Shown piece by piece: positions 294-15,180 of a stretch of 19,093 nt of DNA. Position 1 is the first letter of the stretch. Each line of letters begins with the position of its first letter. This stretch comes from Bacteroidia bacterium. GTDB taxonomy: Bacteria > Bacteroidota > Bacteroidia > Bacteroidales > P3. The translations under genes and the position numbers were made by a program. The DNA lies in NCBI GenBank assembly GCA_025999775.1, contig BNXT01000010.1, positions 1 through 19,093 on the forward strand. Direction: 5' to 3'. The notes beneath the pieces are model-generated. The model searched no databases. It was not told the DNA's origin and saw only the letters and a program-made list of their open reading frames with translations.

Positions 294-380
294 GATTTTT
301 GAGACGCATAAAAACTCCAAACTCAACTCTTCACACGCCACACTCATTTTCGCGCCCTGTTGAAAAAAAATTAAAATTGG

Positions 381-413
381 TTGACCAATATATAAAAAAA
401 TTTTGTACCTTTG
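381..413 (+). promoter_or_regulatory. Bacteroidota-type promoter upstream of the porin operon
   Basis: The -7 element TACCTTTG at 406-413 matches the Bacteroidota consensus TAnnTTTG exactly. A TTG at 381-383 lies 22 bp upstream, slightly longer than the usual 19-21 bp; a second TTG lies at 377-379. No better exact -7 match was found between here and the porin start at 860. Transcription would begin near 420. Assignment to the porin is inferred from direction and the lack of another gene between. Confidence 0.6.
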
Positions 414-535
414 CAAAAATCAGTTACAATCTTGTATGGATAATGCGTTTTTTAGATGGTATGATAGTTGGGTGTTGTGTGCCGGTTTTGTTGATAACTT
501 TTCAACAAAAAACTTGGTTATGTCCGAAATTTTGT

Positions 536-592
<57 letters not shown>

Positions 593-765
593 CCAGCGCA
601 ATCCCACCCACCCCTATGCTATAAAAAGCACAAAGTTAAGATTTTTTTTGAAACTAACAATATTGCTCGTCTCATTTTTCAGAGCAATCACATCGAAATT
701 AATAGCAGTGTGTAAGGTTGGTTTCAAAAAACAAGGATTCATTAATTATTTTGCACAAGTGTCAA

Positions 766-831
766 GGGTGCATTTTAATTTGTCGTTTTTCCCGTTAGGG
801 AATACACAAAACTACAAATTGAAATGCACCC
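766..831 (+). promoter_or_regulatory. Large nested hairpin in the porin 5' leader
   Basis: The arms at 766-783 and 814-831 are inverted repeats matching at 17 of 18 positions (GGGTGCATTTTAATTTGT against its near reverse complement). The 30-nt loop contains a second hairpin, TTCCC-GTTA-GGGAA, at 788-801. The 3' arm ends 28 nt before the porin ATG. The inner TCCC-N4-GGGA core recurs in other intergenic repeats of this window, so this may be a REP-like element, a cis-regulatory RNA structure, or a repeat recruited as one. No terminator-like T-run follows. Confidence 0.75.
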
Positions 832-859
832 AATTAATTAATATAAATCAAAATTAGAC

Positions 860-2287
860 ATGAAACAATTAAGATCAATTCGAAATGTATTTTTAACGGT
901 AACTTTCTTGTGCGTTGCAAGTGCCACCACCACCGTTTTTGCGCAAGAACAAAAAGGTGATACCGATGTGCGTTATAATCAGTATGGTGTAAAAGTAGAT
1001 CATTTTCCTTTAAATTCTGAAGCTCAGAATAGTATCCTTGTGATAGAAAACAAGGAAAAAGGATTTAAATTCTGGATGGATAATCGGGTACAGATGGACG
1101 GCGCTACGTATTTTGGCATTCCCGACGGTTACACACCAATGACAGGCGGCGTAACGATGCGCCGTGTACGTATGGCGGTAAAATCGCAAATAAGCAAAGA
1201 TTGGTATGGTGAAATTGACCTCAATTTTTCTAATGGCGTATTTGAATTAGAAGATGCTATTATTCACTACACAGGTCTTAAAGATTTTAAATTTTCTGCC
1301 GGTAACTTTAAAGAAGATTTTTCGATGGAAGAAACAACTACATCGCGTTACACTACTTTTATGGAACGAGCGATGGTCATTTCCACGTTTGCTCCCGGTC
1401 GTCACATAGGCGTAAGCGCACGTTGGCACCGCAACTGGCTGCGGGCTTCAGCCGGCGTTTCGTGGCAACTAATTGACAATGCCGACACAAAGTTCAATGT
1501 TGACGAATACAACAAAATCGGCAATGAAATCGGACCTAACTTTACAGGAAAAATTGTGTTTATGCCTTGGGAATCGCAGGTAAACTACGGGTTGCATCTT
1601 GGATACAACGTTTCGTATCGCTCGCCCAAAAAAGTTGATGATAATGTTTCCAACGGCTCGGCAGCGCCTCGCGGCTACAACGGCAATTATTTCAGCACAA
1701 GAAACACCACAGCAATTAACCGCACAAAATATATTTCGGCAGAATACTACGGAGTAAAATATGACTTGCTTCACGGATTTGAATTGGCTGGCTACTACAA
1801 AGGCTTTCGTTTTGCAGGCGAATATATTCTTAACGACAGCTATATGGACAAAAACTCCACACTATTAAACGTTAGCGCCGACACAAAACATTTTTCGGGT
1901 TTTTATGCACAGGCATCCTATCTGCTCTTTGGCGGTATTCAACGTTATGACAGTGAACAGAGCGAATTTACGCAACCCACGCGCGGTAAAAAATGGGGCG
2001 ATATTGAATTAATGGCTCGCTACGATTATTTGACGCTCAATAGCGCCGATATCCATGGCGGCGCAGGCGAAAATTATACGTTGGGTGTCGTTTATCACAT
2101 CAATAATAATGTGAAAATTTTGGTCAACTACCAATACTCACACAATGACCGATATGCCAATAACAAAGGCAAAGCTATAATTGGACGCAAAGCCGATGGA
2201 ACTCCTACGAGTAATCCGCTTTTAGCTGTTAGTCAGCTCGGCGCACGTTTTCAGGCGTTGCAATGCCGTATAGAAATAGATTTTTAA
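860..2287 (+). CDS. OprO/OprP-family (phosphate-selective type) outer-membrane porin
   Basis: A 475-residue outer-membrane beta-barrel predicted to let small anions across the outer membrane. Residues 1-28 form a signal peptide (basic start, hydrophobic core, VFA cleavage site). The body has the pattern of the Porin_O_P family: RRVRMAVKSQISKDWYGEIDLNF near residues 97-120, then a LEDAIIHYTG segment and a SAGNFKEDFSMEE segment, followed by many alternating aromatic/polar strands. It ends in IEIDF, with the terminal Phe typical of BAM-recognised barrels. The family name comes from Pseudomonas phosphate and pyrophosphate porins, but Bacteroidota members are rarely tested, so specificity for phosphate is not shown. 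It is the first gene of the same-strand cluster to 8999 and lies behind a long leader with a microsatellite and a hairpin. The ATG at 860 is the only start that keeps an intact signal peptide. Confidence 0.88.
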   Translation: MKQLRSIRNVFLTVTFLCVASATTTVFAQEQKGDTDVRYNQYGVKVDHFPLNSEAQNSILVIENKEKGFKFWMDNRVQMDGATYFGIPDGYTPMTGGVTMRRVRMAVKSQISKDWYGEIDLNFSNGVFELEDAIIHYTGLKDFKFSAGNFKEDFSMEETTTSRYTTFMERAMVISTFAPGRHIGVSARWHRNWLRASAGVSWQLIDNADTKFNVDEYNKIGNEIGPNFTGKIVFMPWESQVNYGLHLGYNVSYRSPKKVDDNVSNGSAAPRGYNGNYFSTRNTTAINRTKYISAEYYGVKYDLLHGFELAGYYKGFRFAGEYILNDSYMDKNSTLLNVSADTKHFSGFYAQASYLLFGGIQRYDSEQSEFTQPTRGKKWGDIELMARYDYLTLNSADIHGGAGENYTLGVVYHINNNVKILVNYQYSHNDRYANNKGKAIIGRKADGTPTSNPLLAVSQLGARFQALQCRIEIDF

Positions 2288-2320
2288 CAACAATTGAATA
2301 TTTTAATAAACACAATAAAA

Positions 2321-4075
2321 ATGAAAATTATGAAAAAGATCCTTTATGTTACAGCAATATGCTGTATGGTGATCACAACTATCAGTTGTGTGAAAGACAA
2401 ACCTATCACACCACCGGAAATGACAGATTCACCTGTAAAGCTAAACGAAGCTTATTCAAATGGAGACCGCTCAACGTATGGCGCTATCGACTGGGTAGAA
2501 TTATACAACAATTCTGGCGAAGCCGTGGATATCAGCGGTTATATGCTCTATGATAAAGCCGATAAGATTGAAAAAGTAATAGTGCCGGTAGGAACAATAC
2601 TTGCAGCAAGAGGATTTTTTACAATTGATGTTGACGTTGTAGGAGGCTTTGGTTTGAGTAGCGGCGGCGATATGGTATATATGGAAGATAATGCCGGAAA
2701 TTTGATAGACCAAATTGAATTTGGCGCACTTACTCCCGAACAGTCGTATGCCCGTAATCCCGATGGCTCTGATACTTTTAAAATACAGACGCCTACCCCC
2801 GGAATATCTAACAATGGCGCAGTTGTAGCGCCTTCTGTAACAAATGTGGCACACACCCCTGTATCTCCCACAAATAATGAGGATGTGGTAATATCGGCAA
2901 CGGTTACAGCCGGCGAAGGAACAGTATCGTCGGTAAAATTGAAATGGACATTAAATACTACCGCACAAACAGATATTACGATGACAAACAGTGGGGATGT
3001 TTATTCCGCCACGATCACTCGTCAGGCAGCAAATGCTGTTATTGCTTATTCTGTGGAAGCGCTCAACAGTGTGGGCGGAACAACAACTACTTCTTCCGGA
3101 ACTTATACGGTAAGAGATGCTGCGGTTGTTGATTATACAGGATTAGTAATCAATGAAGTGGATGGTAACGGAAAATTTGTAGAGCTATACAATAAAAGCG
3201 CTGCAGCCATTTCATTAGCAGGAGTTACTTTGGTGAAGAATGAAACGGGCACTTGGTGGACAGGTGGCGCTGTGAGTATTGCTGCCGGAGGATTTTATAC
3301 GATTGCACAAACCGGACAAACTCCTACAGGCGTTAGCGAATCGACCGGCAATGGTGGTATCTCGTCAAAACAAAATTTGAAATTTGAACTTAAACAACCG
3401 GATGTAACCACAGTGATTGACCAGTTTTTACGTACAAATGGAACTGCGTTGGGCGATGCTGTAACGCCTGCGTATGATGCAACAACCCCGAGATATTCAT
3501 TCTCTCGTTGTCCCGATGGAGGTGCATTTGGATTGGCAGTACCATCATGCAATGCGGCAAATCCTACATTACCTGTCGGACCAATTGCAACCGACGGCTC
3601 TACGGTTGATTATACTCAATTAGTAATTAACGAAATTGACGGTAACGGTAAATTTGTAGAAATATACAACAACGGAGCGGTTGCTGTTTCGTTGACGAAC
3701 ATTACGCTGTATAAAAATGAAACCACACTTTGGTGGACGGGTGGCGCAGTAAGTATTGCTGCCGGAGGATTTTATACGATTGCTCAAACCGGACAAACTC
3801 CTGCAGGCGTTAGCGAATCTACCGGCAATGGTGGTATCTCACCGAAAAAAACGGTTAAATTCGAAATGAGAGCGCCTAATGGATTCTATATAGATGCCTA
3901 TGCCCGTTTAAAAGCTGATGGCATATTGGATGCCGATTGTACTCCAGATTATGGCAGCGGAACAAAATATTCATTCTCTCGCTGTCCGGACGGGCTGGGG
4001 ACGTTTGGATTAGCAGTCCCATCGTGTAATGTGGCAAATCCGGCAACAGCAGTAGGAGCTATTGTTACAAATTAA
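2321..4075 (+). CDS. Surface lipoprotein with three lamin-tail domains (LTD)
   Basis: A 584-residue predicted secreted lipoprotein. ATG 2321 (or 2330) is preferred over the upstream TTG at 2294 because it opens directly into a signal peptide ending in TTISC, with Cys23 as probable lipidation site. Domains in order: LTD1 at about 40-160 (KLNEAYSNGD, WVELYNNSG, GYMLYD, ending ARNPDGSDTF); an Ig-like domain at about 165-265; LTD2 at about 270-411; LTD3 at about 430-573. LTD2 and LTD3 are recent duplicates, each ending with an SRCPDG...PSCN pair of cysteines that could form a disulfide. LTDs in bacteria occur on secreted or surface proteins, often with phosphoesterases or nucleases; here no enzyme domain is fused. 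It starts 33 bp after the porin stop, suggesting co-transcription. Its exact role is unknown; a surface binding partner of the porin is a guess. Confidence 0.85.
   Translation: MKIMKKILYVTAICCMVITTISCVKDKPITPPEMTDSPVKLNEAYSNGDRSTYGAIDWVELYNNSGEAVDISGYMLYDKADKIEKVIVPVGTILAARGFFTIDVDVVGGFGLSSGGDMVYMEDNAGNLIDQIEFGALTPEQSYARNPDGSDTFKIQTPTPGISNNGAVVAPSVTNVAHTPVSPTNNEDVVISATVTAGEGTVSSVKLKWTLNTTAQTDITMTNSGDVYSATITRQAANAVIAYSVEALNSVGGTTTTSSGTYTVRDAAVVDYTGLVINEVDGNGKFVELYNKSAAAISLAGVTLVKNETGTWWTGGAVSIAAGGFYTIAQTGQTPTGVSESTGNGGISSKQNLKFELKQPDVTTVIDQFLRTNGTALGDAVTPAYDATTPRYSFSRCPDGGAFGLAVPSCNAANPTLPVGPIATDGSTVDYTQLVINEIDGNGKFVEIYNNGAVAVSLTNITLYKNETTLWWTGGAVSIAAGGFYTIAQTGQTPAGVSESTGNGGISPKKTVKFEMRAPNGFYIDAYARLKADGILDADCTPDYGSGTKYSFSRCPDGLGTFGLAVPSCNVANPATAVGAIVTN
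3253..3840 (+). repeat. Internal duplication in the LTD gene (111-bp near-identical copies, 477 bp apart)
   Basis: Bases 3253-3363 and 3730-3840 match at 105 of 111 positions. Five of the six differences are synonymous and one changes Thr to Ala. They are the most conserved part of the LTD2 and LTD3 repeat units, offset by 477 bp (159 codons). Flanking parts of the two units are clearly diverged, so the core is either constrained or was homogenised by gene conversion. Confidence 0.93.
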
Positions 4076-4097
4076 AAAAATAAATTCAAAAGAACAA

Positions 4098-4135
4098 AGT
4101 AAAGGAGCCTAAACCGATGTTTGGGCTTCTTTACT
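4098..4135 (+). terminator. Strong hairpin after the LTD gene: terminator or attenuator
   Basis: A 16-bp stem (4098-4113 with 4120-4135, two G-U pairs) closes a 6-nt loop. It lies 22 bp after the LTD stop codon. The downstream sequence ACTTCTTAATAAA is only weakly T-rich, so termination may be partial. No clear TAnnTTTG promoter was found before the next gene at 4182, which favours read-through or mRNA processing over a full stop. Confidence 0.65.
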
Positions 4136-4181
4136 ACTTCTTAATAAAAAACAAAATCATAAACTTCAAAAAATAAAAAAA

Positions 4182-4826
4182 ATGGCAAAAGAAGAATTAA
4201 AAATCGGGGAAATTTCAAAACCTCGCTTTGAGTATCGTTCATTTGGACGTTGTTTTAAAAAACAAGCCGAACGCATGGCGCGTTTATCGGTACCCGTTCC
4301 CGAAAAAGTATGGGAGCGCAAATCGATAGAAACCTACATTGTGAGCCGCACCAACGATGTGAACAACACCAAAATCCGAGACGGGAAAATGGACATCAAA
4401 ACATTTGTGCAAAATGTAGATGGCTTTGAACAATGGAATCCGCTGATGAAAGGCGAATTTCCAATAAGCGCCGAAGTGTTGAAAAAAGAAGTGTTTCCGG
4501 CATTTAAGGTAAATAATCTACCCGAATTGACACAAGCAACATACACGCTCGAAGAATTTTTGACTATCATCAAAAACCACCCCGACTTGCAGGCTGTAAC
4601 AGTAGAAAAACTGCGTTTCGGCTATATGGTGAATGACACTATTTGCGAAACAGGAGATGTTTATATCAACGGCGCAAAAGTTGTTACTATCAATTCCGAA
4701 TCAACCGAAGTGGAAGATTTGAAAAAAACAGTAAAAGACGTTAGCTTGGAAGGCGTTGAAAATATCAACTATCTGCAAGCCATCAAACGTGTAATAGGAA
4801 TGATTGATAAACCATTAGCAAATTAA
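4182..4826 (+). CDS. Conserved protein of unknown function resembling a divergent CYTH domain
   Basis: A 214-residue cytoplasmic protein without signal peptide or membrane segment. I do not recognise a named family with certainty. The middle resembles the strand pattern of CYTH (triphosphate tunnel) proteins: ETYIVS at 50-55, KIRDG at 64-68 and MDIK at 70-73, followed by FEQWNP. This is the acidic/basic alternation expected of tunnel strands, but the canonical N-terminal ExExK is absent. The C-terminal third carries YINGAKVVTINSEST and ends in a helix (INYLQAIKRVIGMI). The gene sits 3 bp before a bona fide CYTH gene, and genes from here to 7653 are tightly packed, so the two products probably act together or as a pair. 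Alternative: an unrelated conserved protein with chance similarity. The start ATG at 4182 follows an A-rich leader typical of Bacteroidota. Confidence 0.72.
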   Translation: MAKEELKIGEISKPRFEYRSFGRCFKKQAERMARLSVPVPEKVWERKSIETYIVSRTNDVNNTKIRDGKMDIKTFVQNVDGFEQWNPLMKGEFPISAEVLKKEVFPAFKVNNLPELTQATYTLEEFLTIIKNHPDLQAVTVEKLRFGYMVNDTICETGDVYINGAKVVTINSESTEVEDLKKTVKDVSLEGVENINYLQAIKRVIGMIDKPLAN

Positions 4827-4829
4827 GTC

Positions 4830-5297
4830 ATGGCACAAGAAATAGAAAGAAAATTCTTAGTAGAAGGCGATTTTCGCCCTTTTGTATCAAAATCAACCCG
4901 CATTGTACAGGGATATTTGTCATCAGTTCCGGAGCGCACGGTGCGTGTTCGCATTAAAGGCGTAAAGGGATTTTTAACCATCAAGGGAATTGGCAACGAT
5001 TCGGGCGCATCGCGCTTTGAATTTGAAAAAGAAATTACCGTAGAAGAGGCAAACGACTTGCTAAAAATATGCGAGCCGGGCGTTATCGACAAAGTGCGCC
5101 ACTTGGTAAAAGCAGAGCCTTATACCTACGAAATTGACGAATTTCATGGCGAAAACGCAGGCTTGACTGTAGCTGAAATAGAATTGCCCGACGAAAACGC
5201 CACATTCGACAAACCCGCCTGGTTGGGCGCAGAAGTAACCGGAGACAAGCGTTATTATAATTCTATGTTAATGAAAAATCCGTTTACTAAATGGTGA
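4830..5297 (+). CDS. CYTH-domain triphosphate tunnel protein, probable inorganic triphosphatase
   Basis: A 155-residue single-domain CYTH protein. The signature ExExK is present as E4, E6 and K8 (EIERKF). It is followed by basic residues R39, R41 and K52 (VRVRIKG...LTIKG), acidic FEFEKEI near 63-69, KVRHLV, and AEIELPDE, all expected strands of the tunnel. Family members bind triphosphates with divalent metals; short bacterial members such as NeuTTM hydrolyse inorganic triphosphate, while class IV adenylate cyclases share the fold. The length and lack of a CHAD domain favour the short bacterial triphosphatase group. It starts 3 bp after the preceding stop and overlaps the next gene by 7 bp, indicating translational coupling. 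Confidence 0.88.
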   Translation: MAQEIERKFLVEGDFRPFVSKSTRIVQGYLSSVPERTVRVRIKGVKGFLTIKGIGNDSGASRFEFEKEITVEEANDLLKICEPGVIDKVRHLVKAEPYTYEIDEFHGENAGLTVAEIELPDENATFDKPAWLGAEVTGDKRYYNSMLMKNPFTKW

Positions 5298-6049
5298 GAA
5301 AAAATACTCTATTCGCATTTTTGTTGCTATCTGTTTTATTTCAGAGTTGTCTCTCAGATGATTTTACACCGCTTGTTATTGATGACGCTGAAAAAGAATA
5401 CACAGATTATCAAACCACAGTCTCCGAATTATCGGGACTGTGTTTCACAAAAAACAAGGCGTCATTTATGGCGGTGAGCGATAGAGGTATTATTTATGAA
5501 ATAAGTAAAACAGATTTTAAGGCACGGAAATTACCATTTTTAGGCACAAACGATTTGGAAGGTATCACCACAAACACTGCCACAGACGAAGTTTACGTTA
5601 TTGACGAAGCCGAAAACACGGTTTACAAATTGTCAGCCGACGAAAAATCGCTTACGCGAGTGGTAAAAATCAACATTCCCAATCCGGTACATAACAAAGG
5701 GCTGGAAGGTATTTCTTACGGCAACGACACGCTTTACATCGTCAATCAGGCAGAGCCGACACGATTGGTAAAATATTGCCTTACGACCAAAACAACTGCT
5801 TACATTGACGTTGCATTTGCAGACTATTTGTCGGATATTTGTTTTGACGACTCCGACAATACGCTGTGGATTGTGGATAGTAAAAGTAAAAAAGTTTTTC
5901 ACTGCGATTTGAAAGCGACAGTTCTCGGCACACAACCGATTGCCTACATTGCACAAGCGGAAGGAATTGCCGTAGATAGAGCAGCCGGTTATATGTGGAT
6001 TGGTTGCGACATTTCGTCTAAATTATATAAAATAAAAATAAAACTGTGA
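5291..6049 (+). CDS. SdiA-regulated-family beta-propeller lipoprotein
   Basis: A 252-residue lipoprotein. The signal peptide ends LLLSVLFQSC with Cys20 as probable lipid site. The rest shows repeated propeller blades typical of the SdiA-regulated family (E. coli YjiK-like): ELSGLCFTKNKASFMAVSDRG, GTNDLEGITTN, NKGLEGISYGNDTLYIVNQ, LSDICFDDSDNTLWIVDS and AEGIAVDRAAGYMWIGCD. These LEGI and SDI motifs recur at about 45-residue spacing. The biochemical role of the family is poorly known; its fold is related to phytase-like esterase propellers. It overlaps the CYTH stop by 7 bp and abuts the transporter start, so it belongs to the operon. ATG 5291 is used; GTG 5294 is a possible alternative one codon later. 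Confidence 0.82.
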   Translation: MVRKNTLFAFLLLSVLFQSCLSDDFTPLVIDDAEKEYTDYQTTVSELSGLCFTKNKASFMAVSDRGIIYEISKTDFKARKLPFLGTNDLEGITTNTATDEVYVIDEAENTVYKLSADEKSLTRVVKINIPNPVHNKGLEGISYGNDTLYIVNQAEPTRLVKYCLTTKTTAYIDVAFADYLSDICFDDSDNTLWIVDSKSKKVFHCDLKATVLGTQPIAYIAQAEGIAVDRAAGYMWIGCDISSKLYKIKIKL

Positions 6050-7653
6050 TGAGTACAGTAGATATAAATAAAGTTTTTGACCCGCTCGATATGAATAATT
6101 ACCGTATTGAGCAATTGCCGCACCGACCGAAAAGTGGCTTTGAGCGTTGGATGGCATACCTCGGTGGTCCTTTGGCTATTTTAGCGTTTATTGCACTTTA
6201 TTGGTTTGTTGATATTCCATTCTTGAATCATTTTAATCCGGAACGTCTTACCGGCGATGCGGTAGCACGTTTTGCAAAATTAGGTTCCACCGAATTTTTG
6301 CGCATCAACTATGCCATGCTGGCTATTTTTTTAGCTGCCATTATATTATGGATAACCGAAGCCGTGCCGAATTATCTAACCTCGTTGTTTGTAATTATCG
6401 GTATGGTGCTTACCGGCGTTACGTCAGAAAAAACGGCGTATGCGCAACTGGGGCACCCTGTAATGTGGCTGAATATTTTATCGTTTGTACTGGCAAGTAT
6501 GTTGGTAAAAACGCAGGTTGCAAAACGGTTTGCGCTGTGGTTTGTAGTACATTTCGGAAAAAATGCCACGAGGATATTTTTCAGCTTCATTGTCATCAAC
6601 ATTGTGTTGTCGGCATTTATTTCGGCAACTACTGCAAAAGCGGCAATTTTACTCCCGATTTTTATGGTCATCGCTGCAATATACGGAGCCACAGGCGGCA
6701 AGAACAAAAATAATTTCGGACGAAATATTGTGTTGCAAAATCTTTTCCAAATCAATATCGGAGCAAGTGGTTTTATGACAGGCTCCGGCGCCAATCTGCT
6801 GGCTGTTTCCATCATTGTCGGCGCAGGCGCCACACTGGGTTATCAGGAATGGTTTGCGGTGGCGTTTCCGCTGTCGTTACTCATCATTATTATTGGTTGG
6901 ATAGTCGGCACAAAAATCATGTTCCCCTTGAAAAAAGAAGAACAGGTACCGCAAATTGAAGGAGGAATGCAGCGATTGAAAGAAGAGTTGCAGAAAATGG
7001 GGAGCATGAAAAAAGACGAATATAAATCTATTGTTATTTTTATGGGCGTGTTGTTCATGTGGGCTACCAAAGGATACCTGCACAATATAGGCGAAACGGC
7101 AGTAGCTTTTATAGGCGCAGTAATTGCACTGATTCCTTACGGTATCGGCATTGTGAAATGGAACGACCTTGATATTCCGTGGCATTTGATGATTTTCTCG
7201 GCAGGCGCCTATACGCTCGGCGCAGGATTAGATGCCACCAATCTTGCAGGAACGTCGATTGACGCCATTTTTAATTCGTTAGGAATTTCAGAAAGTACGC
7301 CATTTGGGGTGTTATTTGCCATACTTACCGGCGCTATGATTTTCAGCGCATTGCTGTTTCAATCCAAAACCATGCGCACCTTAATTTTTGTACCTATTGC
7401 CATAGGCACTGCGCAAAAATTTGGTTACCCGATAATGAGCCTGGCGTTTCCGGTGGCGTTGCTTATCGAACACGTATATGTATTGCCATTCAACAGTAAA
7501 CCGGCTGCGTTGCTCTACACAACTGACCAGTACAGTTGGGCAGACACATTCAAATATGGTATCGCAATGATGATTATTTCGTGGCTGCTAATGTTTGTAT
7601 GGGGCGAAACAATGTTGAGATGGCTTGGCTATATGCCAAACGGAGTATTTTGA
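6049..7653 (+). CDS. SLC13/DASS-family anion transporter
   Basis: An inner-membrane secondary transporter of 534 residues with about a dozen hydrophobic segments. Family marks include WITEAVPNYLTSLFVI near residue 104-119, the SATTAKAAILLPI motif (counterpart of the N-T-A-T-A-A motif that binds sodium and substrate in DASS proteins), GASGFMTGSGANLLA, and a second half with QSKTMRTLIFVPIAIG and FNSKPAALLYTTDQ. DASS proteins move dicarboxylates, citrate, sulfate or, in yeast Pho87/90 relatives, phosphate, generally with sodium or protons. The SNT motifs are altered from the dicarboxylate type, so the substrate is uncertain. The ATG at 6049 overlaps the previous TGA by one base (TGATG); a GTG at 6046 would add one residue. 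Confidence 0.87.
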   Translation: MSTVDINKVFDPLDMNNYRIEQLPHRPKSGFERWMAYLGGPLAILAFIALYWFVDIPFLNHFNPERLTGDAVARFAKLGSTEFLRINYAMLAIFLAAIILWITEAVPNYLTSLFVIIGMVLTGVTSEKTAYAQLGHPVMWLNILSFVLASMLVKTQVAKRFALWFVVHFGKNATRIFFSFIVINIVLSAFISATTAKAAILLPIFMVIAAIYGATGGKNKNNFGRNIVLQNLFQINIGASGFMTGSGANLLAVSIIVGAGATLGYQEWFAVAFPLSLLIIIIGWIVGTKIMFPLKKEEQVPQIEGGMQRLKEELQKMGSMKKDEYKSIVIFMGVLFMWATKGYLHNIGETAVAFIGAVIALIPYGIGIVKWNDLDIPWHLMIFSAGAYTLGAGLDATNLAGTSIDAIFNSLGISESTPFGVLFAILTGAMIFSALLFQSKTMRTLIFVPIAIGTAQKFGYPIMSLAFPVALLIEHVYVLPFNSKPAALLYTTDQYSWADTFKYGIAMMIISWLLMFVWGETMLRWLGYMPNGVF

Positions 7654-7667
7654 TTTACTATTTATTA

Positions 7668-7698
7668 TTGAATATCTACTAACTTACGTCTAACTTTA
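7668..7698 (+). promoter_or_regulatory. Possible internal promoter before the DUF4010 gene
   Basis: TTG at 7668-7670 is followed after exactly 20 bp by TAACTTTA at 7691-7698, one base from the TAnnTTTG consensus, 21 bp before the ATG at 7719. It could give the last gene independent expression in addition to operon read-through. Confidence 0.4.
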
Positions 7699-7718
7699 TA
7701 ACTATGTAAAACAATAAA

Positions 7719-8999
7719 ATGGAACAATATATACATATTCCCGACAATTATATACAGCTATTTTTGGTGCTGGCATTTTCGTTAGTGATAGGACTATCGC
7801 AAAGGAAATTACAATTGAAGAACGATGAGCACGAACCGTTTTTCGGCTCCGACCGCACTTTTGCTTTAATCGGAATTTTGGGTTACATACTTTATATTAT
7901 CGACCCGATAACAAAAGTTTTTTGGGGTTGCGGCGGAATAGGACTTATGTTTTTATTGAGTGTTAACTATTATTTCAAACTGTATCACATGCGTCGATAC
8001 GGGCTTACGTCTATTATTACGGCTTGTATTACTTACTGTATTCCTACATTGGTGATGACGCAACCGATTGAATTTAGTTTGCTGGTATTGGTGATTGTGT
8101 TGCTGCTGACCGAAATGAAAGAAACTTTTATTTCAGTAGCCAGCCGTATGAACAACGACGAATTTCTAACGCTGGCAAAATTTATTATTATTGCCGGCAT
8201 TGTGTTGCCTATCTTGCCGAACGAGCGGATTTTTGCAAATATAAATCTTACACTGCGTAGTGTTTGGTCGGCAACAGTTATTATTTCGGGAATGTCGTAT
8301 GCAAGTTATTTGTTGCAAAAATTTGTGTTTCGCGGCTCGGGATTGTTGGTTTCGGGTATTCTTGGCGGATTGTACAGCAGCACGGCAACAACGATTGTGC
8401 TGTCGCGCAAAAGCAAAAAAGCTCCCGATTATTTAAATCATCGTTACAGCGGCGCAATTATAACCGCTATTGGAATGATGTTTATTCGCATTGCCATATT
8501 GTTGTTGATTTTCAATACGCCATTGTTTTGGCATTCGTGGTATCTCTTTTTAATAATGACAGCCGTTACCACAACTGTCGGTTTAGTGGTTTATTATTCC
8601 AAAACGCCAACGCCGGAACAATTGAAACAGGTTGAAATTGTAGATGACGACAAGAATCCGTTGGAATTTAAAGTAGCGTTGATTTTTGCTGCCCTGTTTG
8701 TGCTGTTTACGCTGATAACGCACTACACCATTAAGGAATTTGGCACGCAGGGATTAAAAGCATTGTCGTTTGTAGTTGGTATTACAGATATTACGCCATT
8801 TATCGTCAATTTGTTTCAAGGCGATTTCGTTGTATCCGGCTCATTGGTAATTGTGTCAACGTTCATTGCCACGTTCAGCAATAACATTATGAAATTAGGA
8901 TACGCACTTGTCTTAGGCGCAAAAGCAAACAGAAAACCGCTGCTTATATGGCTTGGAATAGTAAGCGCTGTTAATGCAATTTTATTCTTCTTCATGTGA
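7719..8999 (+). CDS. DUF4010 / MgtC-SapB-like integral membrane protein
   Basis: A 426-residue polytopic membrane protein. The N-terminal part matches the MgtC pattern (FSLVIGLSQRKLQ...GSDRTFALIGILGYI), where the usual G-L-x-R-E is replaced by GLSQRK. The C-terminal DUF4010 part has GSGLLVSGILGGLYSSTATTIVLSRKSK near 205-232 and LVLGAKANRKPL at the end. Function of DUF4010 proteins is unknown. MgtC itself is a virulence membrane protein linked in Salmonella to phosphate signalling, magnesium starvation and ATP synthase control. It lies 65 bp behind the SLC13 gene on the same strand, with a possible promoter of its own, and closes the cluster. Confidence 0.83.
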   Translation: MEQYIHIPDNYIQLFLVLAFSLVIGLSQRKLQLKNDEHEPFFGSDRTFALIGILGYILYIIDPITKVFWGCGGIGLMFLLSVNYYFKLYHMRRYGLTSIITACITYCIPTLVMTQPIEFSLLVLVIVLLLTEMKETFISVASRMNNDEFLTLAKFIIIAGIVLPILPNERIFANINLTLRSVWSATVIISGMSYASYLLQKFVFRGSGLLVSGILGGLYSSTATTIVLSRKSKKAPDYLNHRYSGAIITAIGMMFIRIAILLLIFNTPLFWHSWYLFLIMTAVTTTVGLVVYYSKTPTPEQLKQVEIVDDDKNPLEFKVALIFAALFVLFTLITHYTIKEFGTQGLKALSFVVGITDITPFIVNLFQGDFVVSGSLVIVSTFIATFSNNIMKLGYALVLGAKANRKPLLIWLGIVSAVNAILFFFM

Positions 9000-9027
9000 T
9001 ATAAATTTATAAAGTACCTTAAATCCG

Positions 9028-9074
9028 CAATGAATAATGAATAATGAACAATTAACAATTAACAATGAATAATG
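9028..9074. repeat. Degenerate heptamer run (AATGAATAATGAACAA type)
   Basis: About six degenerate copies of the same ACAATGA/ATAATGA heptamer that forms the array at 1-293, some with a TTAACAA variant. Further short runs occur at 9186-9210 and 9648-9670. Confidence 0.85.
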
Positions 9075-9093
9075 GTGTGGAGTGTGAAGTTAC

Positions 9094-9121
9094 CGGTCGT
9101 TGAGCGTAGCCGAAACGACCG
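9094..9121. repeat. Short palindromic repeat (CGGTCGTT...AACGACCG)
   Basis: An 8-bp perfect stem, 9094-9101 with 9114-9121, encloses the 12-nt loop GAGCGTAGCCGA. The sequence is of the small palindromic repeat type seen scattered between genes in many Bacteroidota genomes; that comparison is from memory, not from a search. Confidence 0.7.
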
Positions 9122-9137
9122 AACATCATCTTCAATC

Positions 9138-9180
9138 GTCTGAACTAGGATTTATAGGATTAAAGGATTGGCAGGATTTG
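9138..9180. repeat. AGGATT-type dispersed repeat, copy 1
   Basis: It begins GTCTGAACTAGGATTTA and continues with repeated AGGATT words. A second copy lies at 10780-10820 in the same orientation, starting GTCTGAATTAGGATTTA. Both copies sit in intergenic spacers next to TCCC-N4-GGGA palindromes, so they behave as parts of a shared composite repeat. Confidence 0.8.
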
Positions 9181-9216
9181 AAAATAATGAATAATGAATA
9201 ATGAACAATGGATTTT

Positions 9217-9404
9217 AGAGGTGCTATTCATGTCCCGTTAGGAACAAAATGTTGGTAGAAAACGACTATCCGTGCCTCTAAATCCCGTAAGGGATGGCAT
9301 GTAAAATCAGCTATTCTAACGGTTTTTACAGGTCATCCCTATGGGATTTTCTTTTGATGACAACGATTTTTCTACCAACATCACCTCCCTAACGGGAGGT
9401 TTCA
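9217..9404. repeat. Nested palindromic element A
   Basis: Outer arms ATGTTGGTAGAAA at 9249-9261 and its exact reverse complement at 9369-9381 enclose an inner imperfect palindrome (about 9280-9308 with 9324-9352). Four TCCC-N4-GGGA or near cores occur at 9233-9243, 9282-9295, 9335-9347 and 9383-9400; the last is a perfect 7-bp stem with TAAC loop. No ORF and no transposase is present. It looks like a non-autonomous, MITE- or REP-like element or a structured RNA. Confidence 0.75.
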
Positions 9405-9436
9405 TTTGTTTATTATTCATTATTTAGTTTCGGCAT

Positions 9437-9558
9437 AGTAGATTTTGCGTTAAGCGAAGAAGTTTGTAGAGGCGTGAAAATGCAAACTGTTTGAGCAGGC
9501 GTAGCCTGTGAGTTTTTGCATTTTAGCCTCGTAAAACTGCGTAGTAGCAAAATATACT
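9437..9558. repeat. Nested palindromic element B
   Basis: Outer arms AGTAGATTTTGC (9437-9448) and GCAAAATATACT (9547-9558) pair at 11 of 12 positions. Inner arms lie at about 9469-9488 and 9512-9530 (GAGGC...TGCAAAC with GTTTTTGCA...GCCTC), and a central hairpin CAGGC-GTA-GCCTG at 9496-9508. The whole 122 bp can fold as one long stem. Confidence 0.72.
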
Positions 9559-9563
9559 CAGCC

Positions 9564-9647
9564 TTGATTTTTTCTTTTGTTACTTTTCTTTTGTATCAAG
9601 ACAGAAGGAAAAGTAAGAATAAAAAGGCTATTGACAAGAAAAATCAA
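9564..9647. repeat. Palindromic element C (TTACTTTTC...GAAAAGTAA)
   Basis: Inner arms TTACTTTTC (9580-9588) and GAAAAGTAA (9608-9616) are exact inverted repeats; outer arms at about 9564-9575 and 9637-9647 (TTGATTTTT with AAAAATCAA) pair as well. It is immediately followed by a heptamer run. Confidence 0.65.
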
Positions 9648-9717
9648 TGAACAATGAACAATGAACAATGTGGGGGAATTTCTAATTTTCTAAATTCCTA
9701 AATTAAAAATTATTTTG

Positions 9718-9725
9718 TATATTTG
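9718..9725 (+). promoter_or_regulatory. Candidate -7 element upstream of the BspA-like gene
   Basis: TATATTTG matches TAnnTTTG exactly and lies 27 bp before the ATG at 9753. No clear TTTG -33 element is visible about 20 bp upstream, so the call is modest. Confidence 0.45.
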
Positions 9726-10050
9726 TGAATCGGTTAATAATATTTATCTATTATGAGAAAAATTTCATGTATTCTAACAGTCGTCCTAATGGTGGGCATA
9801 ACGACGGCTAACGCACAAACAACGTGGGACTGCGGTAGCCCTAATGCCTCGGATGTAGTAGCCACCCTAAACATCGCCGACAGCACCCTCACCATCAGCG
9901 GCACAGGGGCAATGCAAGATTATTCTTTCTTTGTTTTCGCTCCTTGGCATGCTGACCGCTCTGCTATTAAGACAGTAGTCATTGACGATGGGATTACACG
10001 CATTGGGGATTAATGCTTTTTACAATTGCGGCTGGCTTACTTCCGTTGCC

Positions 10051-10319
10051 ATTCCGAGCAACATTGCAAGCATTGGGAGTTATGCTTTTAGAGAATGCAG
10101 CGGACTTACCTCTGTTCCCATTCCAAGCAGCGTTACAAGCATTGAAGCCGGAACTTTTTACCAATGCAGCGGGTTAATGCACATTACCATTCCAAGTAGC
10201 GTTACAAGCATTGGAAATAATGCTTTTTCCTATTGCCGCAGACTTACTTCCATTACCATTCCAAGCAGCATTACAAACATTGGAAATAATGCTTTTGGCG
10301 GATGCCCAGTACTTATCTC
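10051..10319 (+). repeat. Four 69-bp LRR-coding tandem units
   Basis: Units spaced exactly 69 bp encode BspA-like LRR_5 repeats of 23 residues. Shared words include CATTCCAAGCAGC and TTACAAGCATTGG. Near-identity between units makes the tract prone to unit gain or loss. Confidence 0.85.
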
Positions 10320-10540
10320 CGTCACTTGTCTTGCTACTACGCCACCATCACTGGGCAATGATAATTTTAATAGGATTAGCTCCGACACACTATATGTACC
10401 TGCCGATGCATTAAACACTTACAACGCAAATAGTAATTGGAATAGCGTCTTTGGAACAATACGTGCTCTACCCAACGCGGCTACCGTGAAAGAAGCGCAA
10501 CTCGTTCGCAAATTGTTCGTTTACCCCAATCCCGTCGTTA

Positions 10541-10572
10541 ATGGAGAGTTGAGAGTTGAGAATGGAGAATTA
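10541..10572 (+). repeat. Dispersed repeat (GGAGAGTTGAGAGTTGAGAA type) inside the sorting-domain coding sequence
   Basis: A GAGAGTTGA/GAATGGAGAA word run, typical of intergenic junk repeats in Bacteroidota, is read in frame as NGELRVENGELK between the YPNP motif and the EIYNVNG strand of the sorting domain. Its identity as a mobile repeat is from recollection of such sequences; the internal periodicity is visible directly. Confidence 0.6.
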
Positions 10573-10617
10573 AAGGCGGGGGACAAAATAGAGATATACA
10601 ACGTGAATGGCGTTCTC

Positions 10618-10645
10618 GTAGGGGCAAGGCGCGCCTTGCCCTTAC
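10618..10645. repeat. Perfect GC-rich palindrome inside the sorting-domain coding sequence
   Basis: GGGCAAGGCGCGCCTTGCCC at 10622-10641 is an exact 20-bp palindrome, and pairing extends to 10618-10645 with one G-T. It is read in frame as VGARRALPL. The sequence stands out in base composition from its AT-rich neighbours. Confidence 0.85.
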
Positions 10646-10779
10646 AAACCACCATTGATATTTCGCATTTGCCCGCAGGTGAGTACATTCTGAAAATAGG
10701 GAATAGGACAGCGAAAGTGGTGAAAAGATAATGAATAATGAACAATAGGGGTGGGGGGGCTGCCTCTGAATTTGCAATT

Positions 10780-10954: not shown

Positions 10955-12895
10955 ATGAAGAAACTATTGTTTTTTTGTGTTACGTTGCTCTGCGTTACGT
11001 CCTTGTTTGCGCAAAAAAAGCTTTCGTCATCATCTCAGAAAGCCATTGAGTTATTTTACCAAGGATTGGAAAATTACGATCGCAAAGAGTATGTGCGTGC
11101 CATGACAAGTCTGTATAAAGCCGTTACCGAAGATCCGAAGTTTGTTGAAGCTTATTTGGTTTTAGCAGAAGTATGCGAGAGTGCGGAAAAGAATGACGAA
11201 GCGATCACCGCTTATCGTCGAGTCGTCGTCTTGAATCCCGATCTTCATCCACGCGCGTTGTATAATTTGGGCGACCTCGAATTTAAACAAGGACTGTACG
11301 AAGATGCCGAAAAACATTTGGAAGCCTATCTGAACTATGACCTGCAATCGGAGACGTCCAAATACAAGGCTTTTGAATATTTGGAAAAAACACGCCGGGC
11401 TATCGTACTCAAGGATAACCCCGTACCGTTCAATCCGAACAATATGGGCGACAGTATCAATAGTAAATTTGATGAATATCTACCGGCTTTAACGGCTGAC
11501 GGTAAGACATTGATCATCACGCAACGCAGTTGGACTACCGATGAGGTGTCCAATATCACCATACAGTACGAGGATTTTATCATCAGTCGTTACGACGACA
11601 ATACCAAGCAATGGAGTAAAGCCGTCAAAATGCCGGAACCCGTTAATAGCGCTGATAACGAAGGCGCTCAGAGCATTTCTCCGGACGGACGCTATTTATA
11701 TTTTGCAGGGTGTAATCGCCGAGACGGTTTAGGGAGTTGCGACATCTATGTCTCTAAACGACAAGGCAACCAATGGGGCAAACCGTTTAACCTCTACGAA
11801 CCCATTAACAGTCGCCATTGGGAATCGCAACCCAGCATTGCATCGGACGACAAGACGCTGTTCTTTGCCAGTTCACGTCCCGAAGGCAGCCGTGGCGGCA
11901 CCGACCTTTGGATGAGCGTACTACAAGATAATGGGACATGGTCGGAACCTATCAATTTAGGTGATAGCATCAATACACCCGGTAACGAAAGTTCGCCGTT
12001 TATTCACTTTGATAACCAAACGCTCTATTTCAGCAGTGATGGGCACGGTGGCATGGGCGGTAAAGACTTGTTCTACTCCAAACTGCATCCCGACGGCTAC
12101 TGGACAACACCGGTCAACCTTGGTTATCCCATCAATACTAATCAAAATGAGATCAGCCTGATTGTTAATTCTACCGGTGAAACCGCCTATATTGCCTCCG
12201 ATAGAACAGGTGGTAAAGGCGGACAGGATATCTATTCCTTTGAACTCTACGAAGAAGCGCGCCCACTCGCTGTTAGCTACGTAAAAGGTAAACTTTTTGA
12301 CGCAGAAAATCAATATCCTATTGAGGGCAAACTTGAGATTATCAATCTACGTACCGGAAAAATCGTTGCCGGCGCTACGTCCGACCCGAAAACAGGCGAT
12401 TTCTTGGTTACTTTACCAACCGCAGAAAGCTATGCCATCAATGTATCTAAAGACGGCTACCTGTTCTACTCCGGCAATTTTGAAATGAATAATGACAAAA
12501 ATGCACTCACACCCAAAACGGTGGATATCCCCCTACAAAGCGTCAACGTAGGAGCCACTATGGTACTGAACAATATATTTTACGATCCAAACCAGTTCAA
12601 ATTAAAAGCCGAATCAAAAACTGAACTTGACCGTTTAGTGCTACTCTTACAAAAAAATTCAAAACTCAAGATTGAGATTAGCGGACATACAGACAATACC
12701 GGCAGCGAAAACCTCAATATCGCTTTATCGGAAAACAGAGCTAAATCAATCTACGATTACCTCATCGAAAATGGTATTGATTATCTGCGGCTCACTTACG
12801 TTGGTTATGGATTTAGTAAGCCAGTAACCAGCAATGATACGGAAGCCGGACGAGCCCAAAACCGTCGTACAGAAATCAAAATCTTGGAAAACTAA
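10955..12895 (+). CDS. porE: PorE-like T9SS envelope protein (TPR, PD40 propeller, CRD, OmpA)
   Basis: A 646-residue exported protein. Domains in order: signal peptide (1-19, ending SLFAQ); TPR repeats at about 30-145; PD40/WD40-like beta-propeller at about 165-430 with blades such as ALTADGKTLIITQR, SISPDGRYLYFAG, TLFFASSRPEGSRGGTDLW, TLYFSSDGHGGMGGKDLFY and AYIASDRTGGKGGQDIYSF; a carboxypeptidase regulatory-like domain at about 440-525; and a C-terminal OmpA domain at about 540-646 with GHTDNTGS...LSENRAKSI, whose Asp and Arg bind diaminopimelate of peptidoglycan. This is the architecture of PorE of Porphyromonas gingivalis, needed for type IX secretion. The symbol rests on domain order; other TPR-PD40-OmpA proteins occur in Bacteroidota. 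I see no clear lipobox, unlike the reported lipoprotein PorE. It has its own consensus promoter and is followed after 11 bp by a ureohydrolase gene. Confidence 0.85.
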   Translation: MKKLLFFCVTLLCVTSLFAQKKLSSSSQKAIELFYQGLENYDRKEYVRAMTSLYKAVTEDPKFVEAYLVLAEVCESAEKNDEAITAYRRVVVLNPDLHPRALYNLGDLEFKQGLYEDAEKHLEAYLNYDLQSETSKYKAFEYLEKTRRAIVLKDNPVPFNPNNMGDSINSKFDEYLPALTADGKTLIITQRSWTTDEVSNITIQYEDFIISRYDDNTKQWSKAVKMPEPVNSADNEGAQSISPDGRYLYFAGCNRRDGLGSCDIYVSKRQGNQWGKPFNLYEPINSRHWESQPSIASDDKTLFFASSRPEGSRGGTDLWMSVLQDNGTWSEPINLGDSINTPGNESSPFIHFDNQTLYFSSDGHGGMGGKDLFYSKLHPDGYWTTPVNLGYPINTNQNEISLIVNSTGETAYIASDRTGGKGGQDIYSFELYEEARPLAVSYVKGKLFDAENQYPIEGKLEIINLRTGKIVAGATSDPKTGDFLVTLPTAESYAINVSKDGYLFYSGNFEMNNDKNALTPKTVDIPLQSVNVGATMVLNNIFYDPNQFKLKAESKTELDRLVLLLQKNSKLKIEISGHTDNTGSENLNIALSENRAKSIYDYLIENGIDYLRLTYVGYGFSKPVTSNDTEAGRAQNRRTEIKILEN

Positions 12896-12906
12896 CCCTT
12901 AAAACC

Positions 12907-13908
12907 ATGTACGACCCCAATGGTATTGGTCTTCCTAATGGAAATTTTTTTGGGTTTCCTTATTCTATCGAAGAGTCCGACCTTATTCTTTTGTCGGTGC
13001 CGTGGGATGTTACGACATCCTGCCGTCGGGGCGCTGCCCTCGCTCCCAAAGCCATATTAAACGCATCCTTACAACTTGATTTCTTTGATTTTGACGTACC
13101 GGAGGCTTGGCTAAAAAAAATTGCCACAGAGCCTATTAACCCTCAAATCACAGCGGCAAACACCACCTATAGAGCGGTTTCCGAACATGTTATACACCAA
13201 CTTGAAAGCTGGCTTCAACCAGAGCCGGACGACCTTTCCAAGGTCAATAACGCCTGCGAAGTAGTCAATAACTACGTCTTTAAGACTTGCCAAAACTATC
13301 TGCAACAGGGCAAAACAATCGGTCTGGTCGGTGGCGATCACAGTACGCCTTTAGGTCTTATACAAGCGCTTTGCGAGGTTCACGACCACTTCGGTATTTT
13401 ACATTTGGATGCACACGCCGATTTACGTGAGGCTTACGAAGGGTTTACGTACTCGCATGCGTCGATCATGCATAATGTTTTGCTATTGAAAAACGTACAA
13501 ACACTTGTGCAAGTAGGACTTCGGGATGTTTCTCCTAATGAAATGCACCGCATTGAGAATGACGACCGTATTGTTTGTTTTTCCGACTATGCCCTTAAAA
13601 ACGGTACTTTTACCGGCTACAGTTGGCAAGAGCAGTGTCAAACCATTATCCAAGCATTGCCGGAAAAGGTTTATATCAGTTTCGATATTGATGCGCTTTC
13701 GCCCGAAAACTGCCCTCACACAGGCACGCCCGTACCCGGTGGACTGAGTTTTTATGAAGCTGTTTTTCTCTTAAATACACTCAAAAAAAACGGTAAAACC
13801 ATCATTGGTTTTGACCTTTGCGAAGTAGCGCCGACACCCAACGATGAATGGGATGCTAATGTAGGTGCAAGAATACTCTATAAACTCGCTGTGCAAACGT
13901 TAAGTTAA
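12907..13908 (+). CDS. Arginase/agmatinase-family ureohydrolase
   Basis: A 333-residue cytoplasmic enzyme of the ureohydrolase superfamily, which hydrolyses guanidino groups (arginine, agmatine, formiminoglutamate and relatives) with two manganese ions. All metal ligands are visible: H145 in GGDHS, D168, H170 and D172 in DAHADLR, and D260 and D262 in FDIDALSP. The typical PVPGGLSF segment and ...DLCEVAP near the end are present. The N terminus (FFGFPYSIEESDLILLSVPWDVTTS) fits the Bacteroidota arginase-family group often annotated as formimidoylglutamase or agmatinase; substrate cannot be told from the sequence. It is likely co-transcribed with porE (11-bp gap). Its stop is only 5 bp from the end of the convergent amidase gene. 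Confidence 0.88.
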   Translation: MYDPNGIGLPNGNFFGFPYSIEESDLILLSVPWDVTTSCRRGAALAPKAILNASLQLDFFDFDVPEAWLKKIATEPINPQITAANTTYRAVSEHVIHQLESWLQPEPDDLSKVNNACEVVNNYVFKTCQNYLQQGKTIGLVGGDHSTPLGLIQALCEVHDHFGILHLDAHADLREAYEGFTYSHASIMHNVLLLKNVQTLVQVGLRDVSPNEMHRIENDDRIVCFSDYALKNGTFTGYSWQEQCQTIIQALPEKVYISFDIDALSPENCPHTGTPVPGGLSFYEAVFLLNTLKKNGKTIIGFDLCEVAPTPNDEWDANVGARILYKLAVQTLS

Positions 13909-13913
13909 TTTTG

Positions 13914-15122
13914 CTACTTTCTTTGCAATCTCAGAGCTTCATTTATCGTAATGCGTTCATCACCTAAGAACGCCACGACAAAGGCATCTTCATAGCCCAA
14001 TTTTTGGACTTCTCGCAGGATAGAATTCGCTTCTTGTAACGTTTGCGCTTCCCCTGCCGTATAGCGGTAAGCGCCTTTGTAAACATAGCGCCATACTTTA
14101 CTGAGATGTTGAAATTCAGTACTATTCAACGGTATCGCTTGTGATGAGGACGTGAATTGAACCCTAAAAATAACCATCGACGGCGCTGAGGCTTCCCTAA
14201 ATGTAGGTTCCGTACCAACGTGATTATCATACGTTGGAGAGGGTGGCATAACGTTTGTAGGCATGTTGTTTATAGGTGTGAAATTAGGTGCAAAAGCGGA
14301 ATTTAATGTGGAGTCCCCCGTTTTATCGACGGCGTATTTATATTCCCTGAATGCCTCAAATAAGGCGGTAACAATTCTTGCTTGTCCTTCGTCGGAATTC
14401 ATAAACCGTTCCTCCTCAGGGTTATTGATAAACCCAATTTCCGTGAGGACGCTGGGCATCGTAGCGCCGCGTAGCACCAAAAAACCTGCTTGTTTAACGC
14501 CCCTATCCATGTAATCGACCCGCGCACCCATACATCTTTGGATAGACGCCGCGTAGTTCAGACTTTGCGCAAGATATTTATTTTGCGAATTAGCAAAGAT
14601 GATATACGATTCCGGTGATCGCGGGTCAAAACCATCGTACAACTCATCGTGGTTTTTTTCCATAAGAATCGCTGCATTTTCTTTTTGAGCCACCGCCAAA
14701 TTGTCCTCGGTTCTATGTAAGCCCATCACGTAAGTCTCAAAGCCGCTCGGCAATGCCCGACGAGGATCTATCTCGCTTGAATTACAGTGTATAGACAAAA
14801 ATAAATTGGCTTTATTGGCATTTGCCATCTGCGGACGTTGCCACAATTCCAGCGATATGTCATTGGCGCGCGTATATATCACTTGTACGTCTTTAAAATT
14901 ATCGGCTATCATGTTCCCCAATTTTAAAGCTACGGATAGCGTGATGTTTTTTTCGTCGGAAAACCGTCCTTGTGCGCCGACATCCGTACCACCGTGTCCC
15001 GGATCAATGACAATACGGGTTAGTTGCGGACCTGCCATAACGCGTCCACCCGCTATAATCAAAGCCATAACGACGGCATAAAAAACAACGCTACAAGGTG
15101 AAATGCGATTAAAACAGTTCAT
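13914..15122 (-). CDS. N-acetylmuramoyl-L-alanine amidase with C-terminal SPOR-like domain
   Basis: A 402-residue exported zinc amidase (Amidase_3 family) that cuts between MurNAc and the peptide stem of peptidoglycan. N-terminal hydrophobic segment 12-26 acts as signal peptide. Zinc ligands are H43 (DPGHGG), E57 (SDEKN) and H112 (SIHCNS); the catalytic Glu is E228 in LTEIGF. An insertion at about 134-190 between H112 and E228 is usual in Bacteroidota members. After a Pro/Asn-rich linker (about 265-315), residues 318-402 resemble a SPOR domain (VIFRVQFTSSSQAI...YRYTAGEAQTLQEA...YEDAFVVAF), which binds denuded glycan at division sites. It is divergent from lptD with 58 bp between starts. Confidence 0.9.
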   Translation of the reverse strand: MNCFNRISPCSVVFYAVVMALIIAGGRVMAGPQLTRIVIDPGHGGTDVGAQGRFSDEKNITLSVALKLGNMIADNFKDVQVIYTRANDISLELWQRPQMANANKANLFLSIHCNSSEIDPRRALPSGFETYVMGLHRTEDNLAVAQKENAAILMEKNHDELYDGFDPRSPESYIIFANSQNKYLAQSLNYAASIQRCMGARVDYMDRGVKQAGFLVLRGATMPSVLTEIGFINNPEEERFMNSDEGQARIVTALFEAFREYKYAVDKTGDSTLNSAFAPNFTPINNMPTNVMPPSPTYDNHVGTEPTFREASAPSMVIFRVQFTSSSQAIPLNSTEFQHLSKVWRYVYKGAYRYTAGEAQTLQEANSILREVQKLGYEDAFVVAFLGDERITINEALRLQRK

Positions 15123-15138
15123 TTTATGTTTTTTTTTG

Positions 15139-15146
15139 TAACTTTG
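15139..15146 (+). promoter_or_regulatory. -7 element of the lptD promoter
   Basis: TAACTTTG matches TAnnTTTG exactly. A start near 15153 would give a short leader to lptD. No clear TTTG is seen 20 bp upstream. It faces the amidase -7 element as an inverted repeat (GTAACTTTG...CAAAGTTAC, 15138-15146 with 15163-15171). Confidence 0.6.
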
Positions 15147-15162
15147 TAAGTTAGACCCTTTG

Positions 15163-15170
15163 CAAAGTTA
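15163..15170 (-). promoter_or_regulatory. -7 element of the amidase promoter
   Basis: On the minus strand this reads TAACTTTG, an exact consensus match, placed 41 bp before the amidase ATG at 15122. It is the mirror image of the lptD -7 element. Confidence 0.6.
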
Positions 15171-15180
15171 CGAAATTTAA

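Follow-up and report, generated by a model that had tools for sequence, protein, structure and literature searches.

What would two neighbouring proteins of triphosphate-tunnel type do beside an outer-membrane porin and an inner-membrane carrier? The question is raised by a 19,093-nucleotide stretch of a Bacteroidia genome (positions 1 to 19,093 of contig BNXT01000010.1, assembly GCA_025999775.1; hereafter the window), in which seven genes lie on the plus strand between 860 and 8999. An earlier note, made from the sequence alone, had proposed that the seven form an undescribed anion or (poly)phosphate handling system. All seven are present at the positions it gave, and Pfam and NCBIfam matches agree with the families that it had named, with CYL, the third gene product, placed by its predicted fold. 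Our findings support a smaller unit, a core of porin, lamin-tail domain (LTD) lipoprotein, CYL, CYTH protein and DASS carrier. We read it as a Bacteroidota operon for phosphate acquisition and homeostasis, in which one tunnel protein would be catalytic and the other non-hydrolytic, a reading to which we give a probability of about 0.48; the cluster probably takes up phosphate.

A five-gene core inherited as a unit

The core opens with an OprO/P-type porin of 475 aa (860..2287; PF07396, E 1.6e-34, 120.2 bits against a cut-off of 20.9) with an N-terminal signal sequence by eye, and a lipoprotein with three lamin-tail domains (2330..4075; PF00932, E 1e-35 over three stretches; lipobox ending in ISC by eye), followed by the two tunnel proteins and the carrier. 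Neighbourhoods were compared at the best 80 loci of at least 548 CYL relatives (at least 595 candidates, from a scan of named genomes with the CYL alignment), drawn from Bacteroidales and some Chitinophagaceae; these are the closest relatives, many of them close kin, and kinship inflates the neighbour counts. Same-strand neighbours stand in the expected place at 77 (CYTH), 74 (DASS), 73 (LTD) and 72 (porin) of these loci, and 64 hold the complete core. Where the contig left room, CYTH was missing from none of 75 loci, DASS from one of 70, LTD from four of 74, and the porin from two of 69, one of which (L016) has a cut-off porin slightly too far upstream. The SdiA-type gene is found in 5/80 and the DUF4010 gene in 2/80, and an obligatory seven-gene system, as first proposed, gives way to the five-gene core. 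Further SdiA-type genes occur in L091, L092 and L095 and, outside the class, in L108, L110 and L111, and further DUF4010 genes in L093 and L094.

Presence and absence were scored in 295 evenly drawn Bacteroidales genomes (CYL at E<=1e-90, DASS at E<=1e-60; six additional genomes, whose CYL matches are weaker, are not in the count). CYL was found in 35, this DASS carrier in 37, both in 34 (33 times on one contig) and neither in 257, a co-occurrence with a Fisher p of 6e-40 in a test that ignores descent. CYL stands without the carrier in G431 only, a genome 78% complete, and the carrier without CYL in G437, G441 and G474, where the carrier is matched only in part or close to the beginning of a contig. 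Not one DASS match fell between E 1e-60 and 3e-87; the subfamily is therefore discrete. CYTH is broader, with 181 of the 295 genomes at E<=1e-25; the 43 best CYTH genomes, a cut picked afterwards, include all 35 with CYL.

Across 148 genomes of the phylum, CYL has a match (E<=1e-3) in eight, among them the window's genome itself and a borderline case, and the remaining six loci (L106-L111) are all outside the class. There the order differs: L110 and L111 read CYL-CYTH-DASS-DUF47-PiT-porin-LTD-SdiA-LTD, L106 and L107 start in the same way, with LTD and SdiA not recognised, and L108 reads CYL-CYTH-p485-DASS-porin-LTD-SdiA-LTD. That the set stays together even where its order changes speaks well for a joint function. 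The close kinship of many of the 80 loci would suit neighbours by descent only, with no functional link; yet the reordering outside the class and the joint presence and absence of CYL and DASS in the 295 genomes leave this explanation already largely refuted and scarcely credible. Equally, the 80 loci and the 295-genome test clearly dispose of the possibility, raised in the earlier note, that the genes are adjacent in this genome only. The core is thus inherited as a unit, one that we hold to be conserved across many Bacteroidota with near certainty. The gene cluster is so far unnamed, and no description of the gene set as such was found in the open-licence literature searched.

Two tunnel proteins, one predicted to be catalytic and one seemingly not hydrolytic

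The fourth gene (4830..5297) encodes a true CYTH protein, as had been noted (PF01928, E 2e-11). It keeps every motif of the tripolyphosphatase type, from E-x-E-x-K through the basic residues of the tunnel to E-x-E. Its residues E4, E6, K8, Y29, R39, R41, K52, K88, R90, E116 and E118 are invariant in 67 sequences. The nearest solved structures are 3typ (E 1.2e-15) and 2fbl (E 2.5e-15); the closest solved relative, NE1496 (NeuTTM) of Nitrosomonas europaea, is a member of the CYTH superfamily and an inorganic tripolyphosphatase whose motifs align. Unlike NE1496, the window protein adjoins CYL and a transporter operon, and its activity is predicted from sequence; the motifs make it likely that it cuts tripolyphosphate. 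Where operon-type CYTH occurs without CYL, it may adjoin a remote DASS relative (L124), a PiT-like protein (L127) or p485 (L128).

CYL (4182..4826; 214 aa) matches neither a Pfam nor an NCBIfam family above the cut-off and has, by eye, no signal sequence. Its predicted structure is an eight-stranded triphosphate-tunnel fold, and the guess that it is CYTH-like was therefore right despite the lack of a family match. Relatives number 3220 at E<=1e-3. Aligned with the operon's own CYTH by hhalign, CYL gave a probability of 0.15%, and no sequence similarity was found to triphosphate-tunnel proteins (TTMs) such as ThTPase, YgiF, AtTTM3 and the VTC tunnel domains. In comparison with these, CYL has R-x-E-x-R for E-x-E-x-K and E-x-T/V for E-x-E: all 16 CYL rows show R-x-E17-x-R19 near the N-terminus and, in a register that we infer, E173-S-T/V175 near the C-terminus. 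Fourteen paralogue rows have R, L or F at the first place of the N-terminal motif and, in the same inferred register, keep E173-S-E175, placed where the last strand ends. E173 is thus invariant in 30/30 rows, its register not being settled, and R15 and T/V175 mark the CYL rows. Motif loss and the predicted model together suggest a tunnel protein that looks non-hydrolytic, and we lean slightly toward CYL binding its ligand without cutting it. In three genomes a tandem CYL paralogue, 32-40% identical, lies directly upstream of CYL (L002/L010, L003/L008, L007/L009) and keeps the E-S-E missing from CYL itself.

The top VIA matches of CYL are thiamine triphosphatases and its first Foldseek match is a putative adenylate cyclase, which could point to a system for organic triphosphates (thiamine triphosphate or a nucleotide signal) where CYL and CYTH act on a signal controlling transport. 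Against this, the Z scores of many TTMs for CYL differ by no more than 1, the operon's CYTH groups with NE1496 by sequence, and a Nitrosomonas europaea CYTH enzyme is described as a specific inorganic triphosphatase (PMC3440374); an organic substrate seems very improbable. The tunnel fold also invites comparison with polyphosphate synthesis: CYL might polymerise chains, or handle them as a subunit, in the manner of the yeast VTC tunnel domains, and be fed by co-encoded orthophosphate (Pi) carriers. An enzyme of VTC type would be expected to retain the site-1 glutamate and to have basic residues where the acidic patch would otherwise be. We regard such a module as unlikely, with the register of E173 not settled, neither a membrane part nor an SPX-like domain seen in CYL by eye, and PPK1 already present in 27 of the 35 CYL genomes.

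A carrier with lysine motifs

The sixth gene (6049..7653) encodes a DASS/SLC13-family carrier, over cut-off for TIGR00785 (208.2 against 198.6) and for PF00939, Na_sulph_symp (184.9 against 27; E 3.8e-54). It shares family models and full-length profile matches with known DASS/SLC13 carriers (NaCT, NaS1, VcINDY, DiT1 and yeast Pho90) but bears lysine motifs in place of their signature motifs. The SNT-type motifs in both repeats, the signature of carboxylate and sulfate carriers, are absent; instead S192-A-T194-T-x-K197 and S439-K440, together with N482-S-K484-P, are constant across 82 sequences (T441 in at least 95% of them), and they align at or beside SNT, SNx and PPN of the solved chains NaCT, NaDC3 and NaS1. 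By motif, the carrier thus appears to be other than the plain dicarboxylate type, an identity that the earlier note had listed as counting against its proposal.

An ordinary dicarboxylate or sulfate uptake cluster, its CYTH pair incidental, would agree with the DASS/SLC13 models and with the listed solved relatives, which carry carboxylates or sulfate. Yet the invariance of SATTxK, SK and NSKP, the adjacency of CYL and CYTH and the phosphate neighbours described below all speak against it, and we consider it improbable. The three invariant lysines (K197, K440 and K484) would instead fit a more highly charged anion, and phosphate or phosphate chains are, in our estimate, a reasonably likely cargo. 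Yeast Pho90 is an SLC13-type protein able to carry phosphate (PMC13394699); it was not among the sequence matches of the window carrier.

The carrier gene is followed by p485 (about 485 aa, two likely membrane helices) in L018 (12012-13448) and 45 other loci; no family over cut-off was found in the one or two scanned, nor a clear fold match. In L091 (656-3406) and L096 (3565-6363) a protein of 916-932 aa with no family over cut-off comes directly after DASS.

Phosphate neighbours and their possible regulation

At the best 80 loci, DUF47 (PF01865) occurs in 43 and PiT (PF01384) in 44 upstream of the porin, the families being checked on L015. DUF47-PiT phosphate transport pairs thus stand first in the operon at roughly every second locus of the relatives; as distinct from such pairs elsewhere, the PiT here mostly ends in a coiled coil and a LuxR-type helix-turn-helix (HTH) and precedes porin, LTD, CYL, CYTH and DASS. 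Further phosphate genes adjoin single loci: genome G264 (L129) has DUF47-PiT-CYL-CYTH, with DASS and porin not adjoining and a partial CYL match (E 7e-4), L109 has a Ppx/GppA gene 11 bp behind CYL, and in L093, which belongs to the window's family, DASS and DUF4010 are separated by an NptA-type Na/Pi carrier that contains PhoU domains. L109 and L111 each encode, divergently from CYL, an sCache histidine kinase and a PhnD-like binding protein (PF12974), joined in L111 by a sigma-54 regulator; L106, L107 and L110 have similar genes by eye, and the PhnD-like protein and kinase are likely a regulator set outside the window's class. The suspected phosphate link is borne out by these DUF47/PiT, NptA, Ppx/GppA and PhnD-like neighbours, and we consider it very probable that the gene set is phosphate-linked. 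A possible parallel comes from Bacteroides fragilis, where PhoB is needed for the response of BF0375, a 'polyphosphate-selective porin O' that rises 3.55-fold, and also of PPK, Ppx and a phosphate/sulphate permease (PMC3547664); like the cluster, this regulon contains an O-type porin.

In the relatives, 43 of 49 scored PiT proteins are fused, by profile, to the coiled coil and HTH (GerE in L015, 4072-5820). The motif CWCTACA lies upstream of DUF47 in 40 of 48 regions, at 92 sites against 2.5 in shuffles, with spacings that pile up at 32-33, 55 and 87-88 bp (e.g. L018, L024, L071); ahead of other genes the figure is 59/1074 regions, 26 of these a coding artefact before p485. Operons with the PiT HTH have the motif in 39 of 43 cases, those without it in one of six, kinship not being removed. 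Over 10 genomes an extended form matched at six places, each in a different genome, and its reversed control at one; five of the six matches belong to this operon, and the remaining one (L143) has unrelated genes as neighbours. With a looser paired motif, seven of eight hits in 8 genomes fell on this operon; the reversed control also gave seven, and it is therefore the place and not the number of hits that speaks for the motif. An autoregulated permease-regulator, a PiT with its own DNA-binding domain, is a fair guess. Two other candidates were dropped: a second operator upstream of p485 (26/47), where nearly all sites fall inside the coding sequence of the DASS C-terminus, and a CTACA repeat at 11 bp, which occurs only twice in 1.44 Mb, although repeats of 5-mers at 11 bp number 50 upstream of DUF47 against 15.9 (sd 4.5) in shuffles (18 against 23.0 upstream of the porin).

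Weighing the proposed phosphate operon

Under the favoured reading, phosphate anions would enter through the O/P porin, presumed to be selective for them, and the LTD (and SdiA-type) lipoproteins would hold or guide them. The lysine-type DASS carrier, plus PiT where present, would move them over the inner membrane; in the cytoplasm CYTH would cut tripolyphosphate, and CYL would bind phosphate chains without the usual hydrolysis and report or gate. That the substrate includes short chains, and hence that chains are imported, we propose tentatively; we know of no established bacterial importer of phosphate chains. Doubtful, in our view, is the fuller scheme of cross-envelope import and sensing of short polyphosphate, where porin, lipoproteins and DASS bring in chains, CYTH cuts them, CYL serves as chain receptor and founds a new family of tunnel proteins that do not hydrolyse, and in Bacteroidia the PiT-LuxR fusion senses phosphate at the membrane and acts on its own operator.

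About equally doubtful is a plain orthophosphate importer, in which DASS and PiT carry Pi only and CYL and CYTH monitor and trim internal tripolyphosphate or polyphosphate to set uptake, no chain crossing the membrane. The PiT, DUF47 and NptA neighbours are Pi systems, L129 has CYL-CYTH with DUF47-PiT alone, and the SLC13 relative Pho90 carries Pi (PMC13394699). Two or more inner-membrane Pi carriers per operon would, however, be redundant, and the lysine motifs separate the window carrier from known DASS structures.

Several observations weigh against the phosphate operon with paired tunnel proteins. The function assigned to CYL is itself a prediction, made from a structural model and from the motifs it has lost. 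The PiT family also includes sulfate carriers. DUF47 and PiT do not adjoin the cluster in the window, nor do they stand beside it in the near relatives with room (L011, L017, L035); the window's genome (61.78% complete) has one PiT, located elsewhere, and CWCTACA, the relatives' operator, was not found near the window's porin. PPK1 is not enriched in CYL genomes (27/35 against 165/260, p 0.13). CYL and CYTH occur in L121 and L122 without a recognised transporter of the cluster set, CYTH stands alone in L125 and L126, and in L109 CYL is present with CYTH and DASS absent from the 9 kb read. Finally, B. fragilis has another porin O, BF2289, whose level falls 3.16-fold under limitation (PMC3547664).

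Other features of the window

Genes three to six are tightly spaced, as described before: a 3-bp gap separates CYL and CYTH, CYTH overlaps the SdiA-type gene by 7 bp, and the latter overlaps DASS by 1 bp, given a DASS start at the ATG at 6049. The SdiA-type gene (5291..6049, plus strand) encodes an accessory SdiA-regulated/phytase-like propeller lipoprotein (PF06977, E 6.7e-17; PF13449 Phytase-like, E 2.1e-10). The last gene (7719..8999, plus strand) encodes a DUF4010/MgtC-like membrane protein (PF13194, E 6.1e-52; MgtC stretch under cut-off, 27.6 against 31.4), a lineage-specific neighbour. Between LTD and CYL lies a terminator-like plus-strand hairpin of 17 pairs with a T-containing tail (4098..4135), the longest stem among the 15 found, against 10.5 expected, in a consensus scan of window positions 300-10000; the cluster may therefore form two transcripts.

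Upstream of the porin are a perfect (AC)26 dinucleotide run (538-589) and about 42 copies of a heptamer repeat, ACAATGA/CAATGAA (1-293), of which short arrays recur behind the cluster (9028-9074, 9645-9670). A BspA-type leucine-rich-repeat protein with a type IX sorting tail, in two overlapping frames (9753-10731), looks interrupted. Positions 10955-17802 encode a PD40/OmpA-domain protein with TPRs, an agmatinase-like protein, an amidase and, by eye, a large outer-membrane-like protein, and no link was seen between these genes and the cluster.

Significance

The operon is carried by rumen, other gut and oral bacteria, some of the sources being termites and digesters. What CYTH tripolyphosphatases do in cells is one question, and phosphate-chain import in bacteria is another. 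Because the operon joins phosphate components of both membranes to two tunnel proteins, one catalytic and one that seems not to hydrolyse, both questions become directly testable.
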